From assembly GCA_022562855.1 (NCBI GenBank), contig JADFON010000088.1, forward strand, positions 1 through 7,205: 7,205 nucleotides of DNA, given 5' to 3'. The stretch's first letter is position 1, and every line of letters starts with the position of its first letter. The position numbers were made by a program, and so were the translations under genes. Of this stretch, positions 1 to 5,778 are shown in pieces. This stretch comes from Candidatus Zhuqueibacterota bacterium. Lineage in GTDB: Bacteria > SM23-31. The notes beneath the pieces are model-generated. The model had not been told where the DNA came from, did not search any database, and saw only the letters and a program-made list of their open reading frames with translations.

Positions 1-81
1 GTTAAGAGCGTTCGATTAGAAAGACCGTTGATGCGGTTTAACGAGGAGGAAAAATTACAAAATTATTTGTGGTTTCGCTAG
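1..81 (+). CDS. possible C-terminal tail of an upstream gene (partial)
   Basis: Frame 1 is open from the left edge to a TAG at 79-81 and encodes 26 residues ending in Leu-Trp-Phe-Arg; the other two plus-strand frames have stops within the first 20 bases. The tail is charged and looks protein-like (Glu-Glu-Glu-Lys around residues 15-18) but I do not recognise the family. A terminator-like hairpin follows at 98-127, which fits the end of a gene. The stretch is too short to exclude chance: an open frame of 26 codons is not rare. Confidence 0.3.
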   Translation, partial: VKSVRLERPLMRFNEEEKLQNYLWFR

Positions 82-97
82 TTCGCAAAGCGGTCGT

Positions 98-127
98 AAT
101 CTCCTTACATTTTCGAGGGGATTTTTT
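98..127 (+). terminator. terminator-like hairpin upstream of typA
   Basis: Bases 98-104 can pair with 117-123 to form a 7-bp stem containing one G-U pair, with a 12-base loop, and the 3' arm runs straight into a T-tract (122-127). This is the layout of a weak intrinsic terminator for whatever ends at base 81. It ends only 15 bases before the typA start codon, so it would also lie in the leader of any transcript entering typA and could act on typA expression. The stem is short and A/T-ended, so the call is tentative. Confidence 0.35.
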
Positions 128-142
128 GTTGAATAAAAAACT

Positions 143-2362
143 ATGGAAATAAGAAACATTGCTATTATTGCCCATGTAGACCATGGGAAAACAACACTTA
201 CCGATGCTATTTTGCGCCAGACAGGAGCAATGAGCAATGAAGTAAGCATGGATTCAAACGTGCTCGAGCAGGAGCGCGGTATTACGATTTATTCAAAAAA
301 CGCATCCATTATATACAAAGGCACAAAGATAAATATTGTGGATACGCCAGGACACGCAGACTTTGGATCTGAAGTAGAACGAGTACTGCGCTCTATTGAT
401 TCAGTATTGCTGCTGGTGGATGCTGTGGAAGGGCCAATGCCGCAAACTCGTTTTGTATTAAAAAAGTCTTTGGAGCTTGGATTGCGGCCTATTTTGATAA
501 TTAATAAAATTGACAGATCCTCGGCCAACCCAACTAAGGTGCACAATGAAGTGTTTGAGCTCTTCGCGGAATTGGGAGCTTCAGAAGAGCAGTTGGATTT
601 TCCAGTGGCTTTTGCAGTAGCAAGAGAGGGATTTGTAAAACGCAATATGGAGGATGACTCAAAAGATCTTACACCTCTTTTGGATATGATTCTAGAATAC
701 GTTCCTGTAGCTTCAAAAGATAATGACAAACCGTTTCGCGCGCAACCATTTAATTTAGCGTACGACGACTTTCTTGGAAGGCTTGGGATTGTTCGCGTAT
801 ATAGCGGCAGTATTACTGTCGGAGACACTCTCTATCTAAAAAAGCATTCCGGACAAACTACCAGTCATAAGGTAACAAAACTCTTTACATTTGAGGGAGT
901 GGAAAGAAAAGATGTACAAAGTATTGTAGCGGGCGATATTGCCATAATTGCGGGATTTGAAGATGTAGGCATTGGAGATACATTGGCAACATCTGCTGAC
1001 GAGGCGCTGCTCGAAAGTATTTCCATAGACGAACCCACCATTGAACTTACGTTTTTAGTAAACGACTCTCCATTTGCCGGACGTGAGGGAAAATTTGTAA
1101 CCAGCCGGCAACTTCGAGAACGTTTAGAAAAAGAGCTTGAGGTAAATGTAGGATTAAAAATAGATTTTAATACCCAATCGGGCGACCGATTTATCGTGCA
1201 TGGGCGAGGAGAATTACACATCGCTATTCTCCTTGAAAATATGCGAAGAGAAGGCTACGAGCTTCAAGTTTCGGAACCACAAGTGATTATCAAAGAAGTT
1301 GATGGTGTGGATCATGAGCCATACGAAGAAATTACTGTAGATGTACCAGAAGAATTCCAGGGTTCGGTTATAGAGAAGCTAAGCACTCGCGCCGCACAAC
1401 TCCTAAAGATAGACATAAAAGATGGGCGCGCGCTTATGCAGTTTGAGGGGCCGAGCCGTGGTTTATTTGGATATCGAAACCAATTTGTTATCGACACAAA
1501 GGGAAATGGTATTTTAGCGACTCGGATTATTGGATATCGCCCGTACACAGGAGAAATTGCACATAGGAAGGTGGGGTCTATGATTTCGATTGTAGGTGGC
1601 AAGGCGCTTGGTTTTGCTCTGTATAATCTACAAGATCGTGGAACTCTTTATATTAATCCGACCACAGAAGTGTATGAAGGTATGGTCATTGGAAACACCG
1701 CAAAAGGAGAGCAAATGACAGTGAACCCGACCAAAGGAAAGCAGCTAACCAATATGCGCGCATCTGGTTCTGACGATGCAATTCAACTTACGCCACCTCA
1801 AATTATGACTATTGAGACAGGGCTCGAAGTTATGGACAAGGACCATAATGCCGTATCTTTTATCTATAGCATATATTCGGGATTCGGTTCAGGCTTGGTA
1901 GCTCCCGGCACCGGTTTTACCCTCCAAAACAGAGGGGCATTGTTTTCATTGGACCCCGACCATGTCAACGTAATTGAGCCTCATAAAAGACCGTTTCATA
2001 CGATAATTCCGGCAATGGCGTTCAAAGACGGAGAATTTTTTATGACTTTTGGCTGTATGGGTGGTGCGGTGCAACCACAGCAGCACGCCCAGATTTTCCT
2101 GAACGTAGTGGAATTCGGAATGAACATGCAGCAAGCTGTGGAAATTCCCAGAATAAACCACCAAAGAGGCATGAGCGTGACCGTTGAACCGGGAATCGAT
2201 GAATCCGTGCTTGCCCAGTTGGAAGCATGGGGTCATGTTTTGAGACGAAGAACCACAAGAGGTGGCGTAGGTGGAGCCCAGGGAATTATTTTTGACAGGG
2301 CTACCGGCACTATGATCGGAGGTTCTACACCTCATAAAGACGGGATGGCAGTTGCTTATTAG
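143..2362 (+). CDS. typA: TypA/BipA GTPase fused in frame to gamma-glutamyltransferase C-terminal part (chimeric ORF)
   Basis: Residues 1 to ~563 are TypA/BipA, a ribosome-binding translational GTPase acting in ribosome assembly and stress growth. G1 is AHVDHGKT (10-17), the switch motif RGITI is at 45-49, G3 is DTPGH (67-71) and G4 is NKID (121-124). These are followed by the beta-barrel, EF-G-like and TypA-specific domains up to PPQIMTIETGLEV. Normal TypA is ~600-615 residues and continues with a strand ending in basic residues; that tail is absent. From ~564 to 739 the protein is instead the small subunit of gamma-glutamyltransferase: DKDHNAVSF, the glycine-rich GFGSG (580-584), QNRGALFSLDP (595-605), KRPFHTIIPAM (615-625) and GGAVQPQ (640-646). 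The GGT large subunit and the nucleophilic Thr that starts the small subunit are missing; the aligned position is Glu558. The start ATG is fixed by an in-frame TAA at 134-136; no clear Shine-Dalgarno is present. Both domain identities are near certain; whether one organism carries this ORF is doubtful. Confidence 0.93.
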   Translation: MEIRNIAIIAHVDHGKTTLTDAILRQTGAMSNEVSMDSNVLEQERGITIYSKNASIIYKGTKINIVDTPGHADFGSEVERVLRSIDSVLLLVDAVEGPMPQTRFVLKKSLELGLRPILIINKIDRSSANPTKVHNEVFELFAELGASEEQLDFPVAFAVAREGFVKRNMEDDSKDLTPLLDMILEYVPVASKDNDKPFRAQPFNLAYDDFLGRLGIVRVYSGSITVGDTLYLKKHSGQTTSHKVTKLFTFEGVERKDVQSIVAGDIAIIAGFEDVGIGDTLATSADEALLESISIDEPTIELTFLVNDSPFAGREGKFVTSRQLRERLEKELEVNVGLKIDFNTQSGDRFIVHGRGELHIAILLENMRREGYELQVSEPQVIIKEVDGVDHEPYEEITVDVPEEFQGSVIEKLSTRAAQLLKIDIKDGRALMQFEGPSRGLFGYRNQFVIDTKGNGILATRIIGYRPYTGEIAHRKVGSMISIVGGKALGFALYNLQDRGTLYINPTTEVYEGMVIGNTAKGEQMTVNPTKGKQLTNMRASGSDDAIQLTPPQIMTIETGLEVMDKDHNAVSFIYSIYSGFGSGLVAPGTGFTLQNRGALFSLDPDHVNVIEPHKRPFHTIIPAMAFKDGEFFMTFGCMGGAVQPQQHAQIFLNVVEFGMNMQQAVEIPRINHQRGMSVTVEPGIDESVLAQLEAWGHVLRRRTTRGGVGGAQGIIFDRATGTMIGGSTPHKDGMAVAY
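1826..1846 (+). other. TypA-to-GGT junction (probable chimera breakpoint)
   Basis: Codons 562-568 read Glu-Val-Met-Asp-Lys-Asp-His. The Leu-Glu-Val-Met-Asp part fits the last helix of TypA, where family members usually continue with acidic residues. The Val-x-Asp-Lys-Asp-x-Asn-Ala-Val part fits the start of the GGT small subunit. The two families share a Val-x-Asp-(Lys/Asp)-Asp pattern here, so a short stretch of identical DNA could join them and keep the frame. This is what an assembler joining two genomes at a shared k-mer, or a microhomology-driven recombination, would leave. Confidence 0.75.
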
Positions 2363-2444
2363 AAAATTATGAAGTAGTCGTCTTTAAGGTTTATTCTTTT
2401 GAATATATGTTAATAAAACAGTCACGAGTAAATCTGCGAGTCTG

Positions 2445-2456
2445 AATTTCGAAATT
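2445..2456. repeat. perfect 12-bp palindrome (AATTTCGAAATT)
   Basis: Bases 2445-2456 are a perfect inverted repeat with no spacer. It lies in the 158-base gap between the GGT stop and the GNAT start, two bases before the terminator stem. It could be a dimeric regulator site or chance in A/T-rich DNA; nothing else supports a function. Confidence 0.35.
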
Positions 2457-2458
2457 AT

Positions 2459-2486
2459 AAAAAGGGTGCACATTGTACCCTTTTTT
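2459..2486. terminator. strong intrinsic terminator after the GGT part
   Basis: A 12-bp stem pairs 2459-2470 with 2474-2485 around a three-base CAT loop, with a single G-U pair (2468-2476). It has a GGG/CCC core and a run of six T (2481-2486). The 5' arm starts with five A, so the structure could also terminate minus-strand transcripts. It closes the transcript that ends with the GGT stop at 2362 and separates it from the gene string starting at 2521. It also overlaps the TTG at 2473 that would otherwise give the next gene a longer N-terminus, which argues against that start. Confidence 0.85.
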
Positions 2487-2488
2487 AT

Positions 2489-2499
2489 TATATTTGACA
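2489..2499 (+). promoter_or_regulatory. weak candidate promoter element for the GNAT-racemase-moa gene string
   Basis: Just after the terminator, 2489-2496 matches TAnnTTTG, the -7 consensus known from Bacteroidota, and would place transcription start about 20 bases before the ATG at 2521. The expected partner (TTG-type box about 19 bases upstream) is not at the right distance. The overlapping TTGACA at 2494-2499 is a perfect sigma-70 -35 box, but its -10 partner (GCTAAT, 2517-2522) would overlap the start codon. A promoter is expected here because of the terminator, but neither match is convincing. Confidence 0.2.
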
Positions 2500-2520
2500 T
2501 CAATTTGGCGTTCTGAGCTA

Positions 2521-3375
2521 ATGTCCGGTCTCTTCATTAAAACCCTTCATAAAATTGCTGAATTCTACGATTTCATTGAACTTCAAAAAATAGTCTGGCG
2601 GTTAAAGGATTATGGAGACTGCGTGCCCAGCCATATGCTAATGGCGGTAAGTGAAAGCGGGGGCTTGATTCTTGGCTGTTATTCGGGTGATCAATTGGTC
2701 GGGTGTGCCATGATAATTCCGGCTTACTCACAAATTGACGGGTTTTATCACCATTCTCATATATTGGGCGTTCACCCTGATTGGCAGCATAAGGGAGTCG
2801 GACTTGAAATTAAAAAAGAACACTATACAAGAGCGCAAGCGTTAGGTGTTAAAAAGGTAACCTGGACTTTCGATCCGTTGTTAGGTCCTAACGCCAATCT
2901 TAATATTGCCAAAATCGGGGGAATTGCAAGGCAGTACCGGGTGGATGTATACGGTGATCTTATGGGCGGCAGCGAGCTTGTATCCGGCATTCCATCGGAC
3001 AGGTTTTGGCTTGAATGGTTGATATCGGAGAATCGTGTAATAGAACGAATGAAGGACTTGGAGAAACCGGAGAGTGTTCAACCGGAACAAGATTTGGAAC
3101 CGGTAAACAAGGTGTCCGCAGATGAAAACAATCTGCAAAAAATGGAATCTTACATATTAGTAAACGACAAGGACCGGGTGGTTGTAGAAATTCCTTCCGA
3201 TTATCAGAAGATTTATGACACAGACAAGGATCTCGCCATGGACTGGCGGCTTAAGTCAAGAGATATGTTTCGGGAATATTTTAAAGAAGGATTTATTATA
3301 GTGGATTTTTATAAGGTTTCGAAGGAAAATACCTGGCAAAATTATTATTTACTGGAAAAAGGGACGGAGAAATAG
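2521..3375 (+). CDS. GNAT-family acyltransferase (COG3375 type), probable amino acid N-succinyltransferase
   Basis: The 284-residue protein has a GNAT fold in its first ~170 residues. The beta-4/alpha-3 acyl-CoA site is visible as LGVHP (82-86) followed by Gln89-x-x-Gly92-x-Gly94. After it come TWTFDPL, NIAKIGGIARQY, YGDL and GIPSDRFWLEW, the pattern of the COG3375 acetyltransferases that sit beside N-acylamino acid racemases. In the Geobacillus-type pathway such an enzyme succinylates D-amino acids so that the racemase can invert them; here the succinyl donor is inferred, not shown. Residues ~175-284 form a charged C-terminal extension of unclear role. The frame is open upstream to a TTG at 2473, but that TTG lies in the terminator loop and the family's N-terminus begins close to the ATG at 2521. 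It ends with tandem TAG-TGA stops and lies 7 bases before the racemase gene, so the two are very likely cotranscribed. Confidence 0.85.
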   Translation: MSGLFIKTLHKIAEFYDFIELQKIVWRLKDYGDCVPSHMLMAVSESGGLILGCYSGDQLVGCAMIIPAYSQIDGFYHHSHILGVHPDWQHKGVGLEIKKEHYTRAQALGVKKVTWTFDPLLGPNANLNIAKIGGIARQYRVDVYGDLMGGSELVSGIPSDRFWLEWLISENRVIERMKDLEKPESVQPEQDLEPVNKVSADENNLQKMESYILVNDKDRVVVEIPSDYQKIYDTDKDLAMDWRLKSRDMFREYFKEGFIIVDFYKVSKENTWQNYYLLEKGTEK

Positions 3376-3382
3376 TGAGAAT

Positions 3383-4489
3383 ATGAAAATCGAAAAAATT
3401 GAAATCCACCATGTAAGCATACCTTTGAAACATTTTTTTGAAACGAGTTTCGGGAGGGAAGATCATGGGGAACATATCATCGTCAAACTATCCGGCGACG
3501 GTTTACACGGTTATGGGGAATCTGCCGTCTCACCCGATCCTTCCTACTGTTATGAAACTACTGAAACAGTTTGGCACGTAATGAAGGATTTTCTTATCCC
3601 GGCGGTGCTTGGCAGGGAGATCGACGGAATAGAGACTCTTTTAAAAACCATGAGTAAGGTAAGAGGGCACCATTTTGCAAAGTGTGGTATTGAAGGCGCA
3701 TATTGGCACCTGCATTCGTTAAAAGAGGGGCAGCCGCTTCATAGGATATGGGGCGGCACAAGGACAAAGATACAATCCGGGGTTAGTATCGGGATACAGG
3801 ATTCCGTAGAAGAACTCCTGGAGAGAATAACCGGTTTTCTGGACCAAGGTTATAAACGGATAAAAATAAAGATCAAACCGGGTTGGGATGTGGTTCCTGT
3901 CGAGGCGGTTCGAAAAAAGTTTGGCGATATACCGTTAATGGTGGATGCTAACGCTGCCTATACACTCAATGACTTGGGTATTTTACAGTCTTTAGACGAG
4001 TTTGACCTGACGATGATAGAACAACCGCTGCATTTCGCCGACCTCACAGAACATGCCGTTCTTCAAAAGCAGTTGAAAACTCCGATATGCCTTGACGAAA
4101 GCATAAGCGGCGTTAGAACTGCAAACGCTGCTTTGGCGCTTGGCAGCTGCAAGATAATAAACATAAAACCGGGCAGAGTAGGCGGGTATATGGCTGCGAG
4201 AGAAATCCACGACATCTGCAAGATTGCAGAAATTCCTGTCTGGTGCGGGGGCATGCTTGAATTCGGAATAGGAAGAGCGCTGAACCTTGCAATTTGTTCG
4301 CTGCCAAATTTTATTTTTCCGGGAGACGTCTCCTCGAGCGACAGGTATTTCGACGAGGATATTATCACACCTCCTGTTGAATTTACCGATGGAGAGTTAT
4401 TGTTGTCCGAAGAACCCGGTTTCGGATTTAAACCTGACGACGCCTTAATCGAGAAATACTCTATCCGGTCGCTGCAGTTCAAAAACTAA
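3383..4489 (+). CDS. menC: N-succinylamino acid racemase / o-succinylbenzoate synthase (enolase superfamily)
   Basis: The 368-residue protein has the usual length for the NSAR/OSBS group of the muconate-lactonizing subgroup. An N-terminal capping domain (1 to ~125) is followed by a TIM barrel. The catalytic lysines are in KIKIKPGWD (Lys161 and Lys163) and the opposite catalytic lysine is Lys262 in NIKPGRVGG. The Mg2+ ligands are Asp188 (DAN), Glu213 (EQP) and Asp238 (DES). Further signatures are ICLDES, WCGGMLEFGIGRA and LPNFIFPGD. Arg265 matches the second-shell arginine linked to racemase activity in the Amycolatopsis enzyme. Enzymes of this group racemise N-succinyl amino acids, and many also dehydrate SHCHC to o-succinylbenzoate for menaquinone. 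No men genes are in view, whereas a GNAT partner sits directly upstream, so amino acid racemisation is the likelier role. The symbol menC is the family label only. The start ATG is preceded by a weak GGAGA (3366-3370). Confidence 0.93.
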   Translation: MKIEKIEIHHVSIPLKHFFETSFGREDHGEHIIVKLSGDGLHGYGESAVSPDPSYCYETTETVWHVMKDFLIPAVLGREIDGIETLLKTMSKVRGHHFAKCGIEGAYWHLHSLKEGQPLHRIWGGTRTKIQSGVSIGIQDSVEELLERITGFLDQGYKRIKIKIKPGWDVVPVEAVRKKFGDIPLMVDANAAYTLNDLGILQSLDEFDLTMIEQPLHFADLTEHAVLQKQLKTPICLDESISGVRTANAALALGSCKIINIKPGRVGGYMAAREIHDICKIAEIPVWCGGMLEFGIGRALNLAICSLPNFIFPGDVSSSDRYFDEDIITPPVEFTDGELLLSEEPGFGFKPDDALIEKYSIRSLQFKN

Positions 4490-4515
4490 TCGAAAATTAG
4501 GAATATCAATATCTA

Positions 4516-4767
4516 ATGAAGATAAAGCTAAGATTCTTTGCTATATGCAGGGAATTAGCCGGTCAGGAGTATGCAACAATAGATCTTCCTGAAAGCTGTG
4601 ACCGTGAAAGGTTGCATAATGAAATCGGCACGTTATTTCCTCGATTGTCAGAGCTTTTACCACAGGTGGCTATAGCTCTTAACAATGAGTACGCACCCCG
4701 TGATGGCAATTTAAAGTTGAATGACGGGGATGAAATAAGTTTGATACCCCCGGTGAGCGGAGGATAG
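4516..4767 (+). CDS. moaD: MoaD, molybdopterin synthase small (sulfur carrier) subunit
   Basis: This 83-residue ubiquitin-like protein begins MKIKLRFFAICRELAG and ends in PPVSGG. The C-terminal Gly-Gly is adenylated by MoeB/MoaB-type enzymes and converted to a thiocarboxylate, which supplies sulfur to cyclic pyranopterin monophosphate on MoaE. The length and the DGDEISLIPPVSGG ending are typical. The gene begins 26 bases after the racemase stop with only a weak AGGAA (4499-4503) upstream. It is followed after a single base by moaE, its partner subunit; the two Gly codons form the moaE ribosome binding site. Confidence 0.95.
   Translation: MKIKLRFFAICRELAGQEYATIDLPESCDRERLHNEIGTLFPRLSELLPQVAIALNNEYAPRDGNLKLNDGDEISLIPPVSGG
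4759..4764 (+). promoter_or_regulatory. Shine-Dalgarno of moaE embedded in the moaD Gly-Gly codons
   Basis: GGAGGA at 4759-4764 is both the two terminal glycine codons of moaD and a near-perfect anti-16S match, placed 5 bases (from GGAGG) before the moaE ATG at 4769. The moaD stop TAG lies between them. This arrangement favours translational coupling of the two subunits. Confidence 0.8.
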
Positions 4768-4768
4768 C

Positions 4769-4951
4769 ATGTTTGTTGTTTCAGATTTACCCATCAATCG
4801 TGAAGAACTGGTAAAATCGGTTGAAAGTCAGGAGGCTGGAGCGATAGCAGTATTTGATGGTGTAGTCCGCAATAATGCTGATGGCAAGAAAGTCCTTCGA
4901 ATGAAATATGAAGCTCATAAAGAGATGGCAGAAAACATGATGGAAGAATGA
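4769..4951 (+). CDS. moaE: MoaE N-terminal part (60 residues, ends at the in-frame TGA)
   Basis: This is what would be translated if the TGA at codon 61 stops the ribosome. It holds the conserved Arg34 of Val-Val-Arg-Asn-Asn but lacks the His-Arg and Trp-Lys-Lys elements, so it cannot be a working MoaE by itself. Its start is firmly set by the GGAGGA five to ten bases upstream. Confidence 0.6.
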   Translation: MFVVSDLPINREELVKSVESQEAGAIAVFDGVVRNNADGKKVLRMKYEAHKEMAENMMEE

Positions 4952-4963
4952 GCTGAAAAAACT

Positions 4964-5188
4964 ATGAAAAAATACCCCGTTTTGGGTGTTGCAATGCAGC
5001 ACCGTACCGGGATGCTCGAGATCGGAGATTCGAGTGTAACGATTGCGGTCTCATCCGCACACCGCGCAGAGGCTTTTGAGGCATGCAGATATGTAATTGA
5101 CACGTTAAAAGTTACCCTGCCAATCTGGAAAAAGGAATACTTTGAAGAGGGTTCGGATTGGGTTGAGGGAACACCGGTCAAAGTATAA
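4964..5188 (+). CDS. moaE: MoaE C-terminal part (possible restart product, 74 residues)
   Basis: An ATG four codons after the TGA restarts the same frame and gives the C-terminal half with HRTG, SSAHR and PIWKKE. The bases before it (AAAAACT) are identical to those before the mocA-like start at 5194. No Shine-Dalgarno is in range; a GGAAG lies about 17 bases upstream. Independent translation is possible but unproven, and the Met is equally well an internal residue of intact MoaE. Confidence 0.4.
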   Translation: MKKYPVLGVAMQHRTGMLEIGDSSVTIAVSSAHRAEAFEACRYVIDTLKVTLPIWKKEYFEEGSDWVEGTPVKV

Positions 5189-5193
5189 AAACT

Positions 5194-5778
5194 ATGACGA
5201 TTGCCGTAATTCTTTCCGCAGGCGAATCCAGCCGCATGGAATCGAATCCAAAAGCCAACCTTCTTTATAACGATAAAACGTTCCTCTCCAATATAGCTGA
5301 CATTTTTTATAAAGCAGGTTTGGGAAAAATCTATGTGGTGGTCGGAAAGGATGCAGAGTTAATAAAAAAGGCGAATAAAGATTTAGAAGTCGAATTTTTA
5401 ACCAACAAAGAGTACAAGAAGGGTCAGCTAAGTTCTATTAAAGTATCACTTGAACATATTCCGAAAACTTGTGACAGCATTATGATTCACCTTGTCGATC
5501 ATCCCCTTATTCAAAAAGAGACTGTGAAGACAATTTTAACCACACGCAAATCGACAAATGCCCCGGTTATTATTCCCGTTTTTAAAGGTAAAAGGGGTCA
5601 CCCTGTATTGTTCGGCAGGGAAGTATTTGATGATCTTAAAAGGGCGCCGATGGATGTTGGCGCGCGTTCGGTGGTCTGGAAATATGCGAAGAGTCTGCAT
5701 GAAATTTCAACGGATGATCAAGGAATTGTGCTTAATATTAATACCCCCGAACTTTATCAAAAGTGGTGTGAAGCTTAG
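5194..5778 (+). CDS. mocA: MocA/MobA-like molybdenum cofactor nucleotidyltransferase
   Basis: The 194-residue protein has the Rossmann-like NTP-transferase fold. The nucleotide loop LSAGESSRM (7-15) is followed by Pro19-Lys20, the metal-binding Asp102 is in LVDHPLI, and GKRGHPVLF (132-140) precedes DVGAR (154-158) and NINTPE (181-186). The GHPV(L/F) and (D)xGAR pair is characteristic of MocA-type enzymes, which join CMP to molybdopterin for xanthine-dehydrogenase-family enzymes. The Ala-Gly in the loop, rather than MobA's Gly-Gly, also leans to CTP over GTP, but specificity cannot be settled by reading. Glu16 replaces the glycine that usually follows Arg-Met. The gene starts 5 bases after the moaE stop, so it is part of the same transcript; it has no good Shine-Dalgarno. 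Its position directly after moaD-moaE supports a cofactor role. Confidence 0.85.
   Translation: MTIAVILSAGESSRMESNPKANLLYNDKTFLSNIADIFYKAGLGKIYVVVGKDAELIKKANKDLEVEFLTNKEYKKGQLSSIKVSLEHIPKTCDSIMIHLVDHPLIQKETVKTILTTRKSTNAPVIIPVFKGKRGHPVLFGREVFDDLKRAPMDVGARSVVWKYAKSLHEISTDDQGIVLNINTPELYQKWCEA

Follow-up and report, generated by a model that had tools for sequence, protein, structure and literature searches.

A reading frame joining TypA to gamma-glutamyltransferase in a metagenome-assembled genome is very probably a chimera of two organisms

Introduction

Chimeric contigs in metagenome-assembled genomes consist of fragments from different sources that have been wrongly assembled together, and such misassemblies have been termed relatively rare (PMC8201837), so that evidence on the individual join described here was needed. 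The case involves two protein families, the translational GTPase TypA/BipA (TIGR01394; PDB 5a9v, 4zci) and gamma-glutamyltransferase (GGT; PF01019; PDB 2dbu, 2nlz). Among the papers searched, none mentions BipA, gamma-glutamyltranspeptidase and gene fusion together. We analysed a stretch of 7,205 nucleotides, the window, which is contig C94 of a Candidatus Zhuqueibacterota bin whose fragmented assembly comprises 491 contigs and is 79.6% complete and 2.5% contaminated.

Results

Positions 143-2362 of the window (forward strand) form one unbroken frame of 739 codons, from ATG to TAG, in which ~567 residues of TypA/BipA are followed by ~177 residues that constitute the end of a GGT. Residues 3-568 match TIGR01394 (E 1.7e-232, above cut-off) and residues 560-734 match PF01019 (E 4.4e-49), the latter across the final 182 of its 512 positions (331-512), which bears out the original prediction of an uninterrupted frame running from TypA into GGT. 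The TypA part (143-1843, forward strand) matches PF00009, PF03144, PF00679 and TIGR01394, with the EF-Tu-type GTP-binding domain, domain 2 and the EF-G-like C-terminal domain arranged as in TypA proteins. Its BipA C-terminal domain is incomplete: PF21018 is matched up to position 92 of 110, as against 109 of 110 in one intact Parcubacteria TypA, and the codons for the last ~30 residues of the intact protein are missing. The truncation had thus been foreseen, although its size had been put too high, at ~45 residues. An Rfam search of the window found no RNA.

The GGT part (1829-2362, forward strand) is likewise partial. Only positions 331-512 of PF01019 are present, in agreement with the earlier claim that the whole large subunit is missing; the large and small subunits are not encoded here in one precursor, and intact relatives match PF01019 over positions 2-512. 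The small chains of solved GGT structures start opposite Thr370 of the paralogue on bin contig C303, in the motif GDTVYF, and the window has Glu558 at this place. The GGT part begins five residues inside the small subunit, and the catalytic Thr is therefore missing as well.

With the TypA part as query, a scan of contigs from bacterial and archaeal genomes returned 20 loci, the best of which (79-81% protein identity) belong to Parcubacteria-type Patescibacteria (Jorgensenbacteria, Nealsonbacteria, Parcubacteria and further bins). Positions 2-1843 share 73-77% DNA identity with these Parcubacteria-type loci, and the similarity includes the 142 bases 5' of the gene (1-142, forward strand), which blastn identifies as foreign, Patescibacteria-type DNA: four loci are homologous from base 2-6 of the window onwards, the best ones from base 2, identity 5' of the start codon is 62-74% in most of the loci compared, and donor homology stops at 1842-1843 in most. 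Phylogenetic analysis of 33 TypA sequences nests that of the window among the Parcubacteria-type loci (support 100/100). The genome G002 belongs to the same family as the window; its TypA shares 48% identity with the window TypA and falls into a separate, fully supported group. We rejected a host-lineage origin of the window TypA because of its placement inside Patescibacteria. The bin, which is only about 80% complete, holds no second TypA. Among the five remaining genomes of the phylum (G001-G005), most of them incomplete, TypA was detected at E 1e-100 in G002 only; its absence from the others may reflect missing data or real loss.

The remainder of the contig has a different source. From 1829 to ~5760 it matches the bin's own lineage, in the order GGT, acetyltransferase, MenC-like enzyme, MoaD, MoaE and MocA-like protein, and this gene order is found in two same-family genomes. 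The GGT part has 67% amino acid identity to the bin's own intact GGT on C303 and 61% to the GGT on contig C64 of G002, an intact locus observed directly, where the gene is whole (563 aa, PF01019 positions 2-512) and precedes the same acetyltransferase and, at the contig end, the start of a MenC-like gene. Contig C140 of G001 carries the acetyltransferase, MenC-like, MoaD, MoaE and MocA-like genes arranged as in the window. Because of the identity to the paralogue and the gene order shared with these two contigs, we assign the right part to the bin's own lineage.

The GNAT-family acetyltransferase (2473-3375, forward strand; PF00583) is the same neighbour in both contigs, the MenC-like enolase-superfamily enzyme (3383-4489, forward strand; TIGR01928 above cut-off) is 72% and 58% identical in the two genomes, and MoaD, MoaE and the MocA-like NTP transferase (4516-5778, forward strand) are colinear with C140 of G001.

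Several further features of the host side were noted. The genes from the acetyltransferase to the MocA-like protein (2473-5778, forward strand) form a conserved neighbourhood, and the acetyltransferase-MenC pair is shared by two further genera of this family; the two enzymes may work together. The MoaE gene (4769-5188, forward strand) contains an in-frame TGA at 4949-4951 that follows MAENMMEE and is flanked on either side by intact MoaE sequence. MoaE is uninterrupted in C140 of G001; possible explanations for the TGA are a base error, variation between strains or recent pseudogene formation. Bin contig C303 bears two tandem GGT genes (2-1135 and 1271-2923, minus strand) and further copies lie on C285 and C90, giving several GGT paralogues in the lineage.

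The two sides also differ in tetranucleotide composition. The left part had a likelihood ratio of +9.1 and the right part one of -18.4, positive values being donor-like. Patescibacteria controls ranged from 4.4 to 29 (median 16), and host composition, taken from a sample of the bin's contigs that excluded nine masked to N, gave a median of -17. Scores as high as that of the left part were reached by 2% of host chunks, and no donor chunk scored as low as any right-part chunk. We would treat this result as supporting evidence only. GC content (42.5% left vs 43.6% right) does not separate the halves and is uninformative alone.

Donor homology ends at 1843 and homology to the bin's GGT paralogue begins at 1829, a sharp change of lineage within the contig. 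The 15-base overlap, GTTATGGACAAGGAC (1829-1843, forward strand), fits both parents, contains the join and encodes V-M-D-K-D; its length is an estimate made from relatives of the two parents. On either side, these relatives have [V/I]-M-D-[K/E]-D, or nearly so, in the same frame (...GLEVMDKDEYLEVTP in TypA and ...YFTVMDKDHNAVSF in GGT). The two origins, the position of the switch and the sequence shared there are thus direct observations. Because both parents share their frame across this stretch, a join anywhere within it stays open, which explains the open frame with no need for selection.

Searches for a second example gave a uniform result. No TypA-GGT fusion was found in 40 relatives (each half serving as query), 6 genomes of the phylum or 17 genomes of Patescibacteria. 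Matches to a 216-residue query spanning the junction were obtained in 96 of the 142 genomes of the class to which the nearest donor relative belongs; among the matches listed, the alignment always ends at residue 45 of 216, the start of the GGT part, and no GGT was seen in the 142 genomes. The donor's class thus appears to lack GGT, and the fusion is not a known Patescibacteria gene. Viral contigs yielded no match to an exact 34-base pattern taken from the junction.

Discussion

We conclude, with a probability of roughly 0.95, that this contig holds no fusion gene but is a chimera from assembly or library preparation. A Parcubacteria-type (Patescibacteria) organism would have supplied the 5' end of its TypA gene and the bin's main organism the 3' end of a GGT gene, the two meeting inside the 15 bases common to both genes. 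The false frame would have remained open since V-M-D-K-D, or a close equivalent, is encoded there by both genes in one frame. The original prediction had favoured an artefact joining two genomes. It gains support from the halves' best relatives, which lie in different phyla when compared separately, from the lack of any independent genome carrying the fusion among those searched, and from host synteny with a whole GGT; its warning against treating the left ~1.8 kb and the rest as one organism was right.

We infer an in silico or in vitro origin for the join, as opposed to an event in a living cell. The join may have arisen by gap closing, template switching or a sequencing chimera. About 15 bases is below the usual k-mer length of de Bruijn assemblers, so that, on general grounds, a shared k-mer seems a less likely cause than gap closing or template switching.

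It is very unlikely, by comparison, that a single recombination carried a Patescibacteria TypA fragment into the host GGT gene by way of the 15-base microhomology, leaving a frame that is fused but non-functional, or TypA-only. Microhomology recombination in a cell would leave an identical footprint, and the open frame and the lack of another TypA in the bin fit such a transfer. However, the foreign DNA starts at the contig's first bases, so no host DNA is seen to flank it, and the bin is broken into many contigs; the event would also have destroyed a GGT gene whose counterpart at the syntenic site in G002 is whole, and the genomes searched offered no second copy. A transfer of this kind, if real, would mean that a translation-factor gene had moved directly across phyla into the host lineage. 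A functional bifunctional TypA-GGT protein, which has the uninterrupted frame alone in its favour, is not credible: we rejected a functional fusion on account of the missing large subunit and of Glu in place of the nucleophilic Thr, and the TypA tail is cut and no relatives of this architecture were found in the genomes searched.

Reading the contig as an artefact keeps a spurious gene-fusion family and a spurious transfer between phyla off the record. This contig does not justify counting TypA in the bin's genome, and positions 1-1843 should be trimmed. That a frame runs open through a join does not speak against misassembly, as the shared stretch alone keeps it open.

Compared with the known systems, residues 1-567 resemble TypA/BipA from the GTPase through the later domains and nearly through the BipA C-terminal domain, but the last ~30 TypA residues are replaced by unrelated GGT sequence. 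Residues 563-739 resemble the GGT small subunit almost to its end, and differ from GGT in the absence of the large subunit, the self-cleavage site and the catalytic Thr. Like the chimeric contigs described from metagenome-assembled genomes (PMC8201837), the window joins different sources and changes lineage within one contig; unlike them, it makes the switch inside a reading frame, which is kept open.
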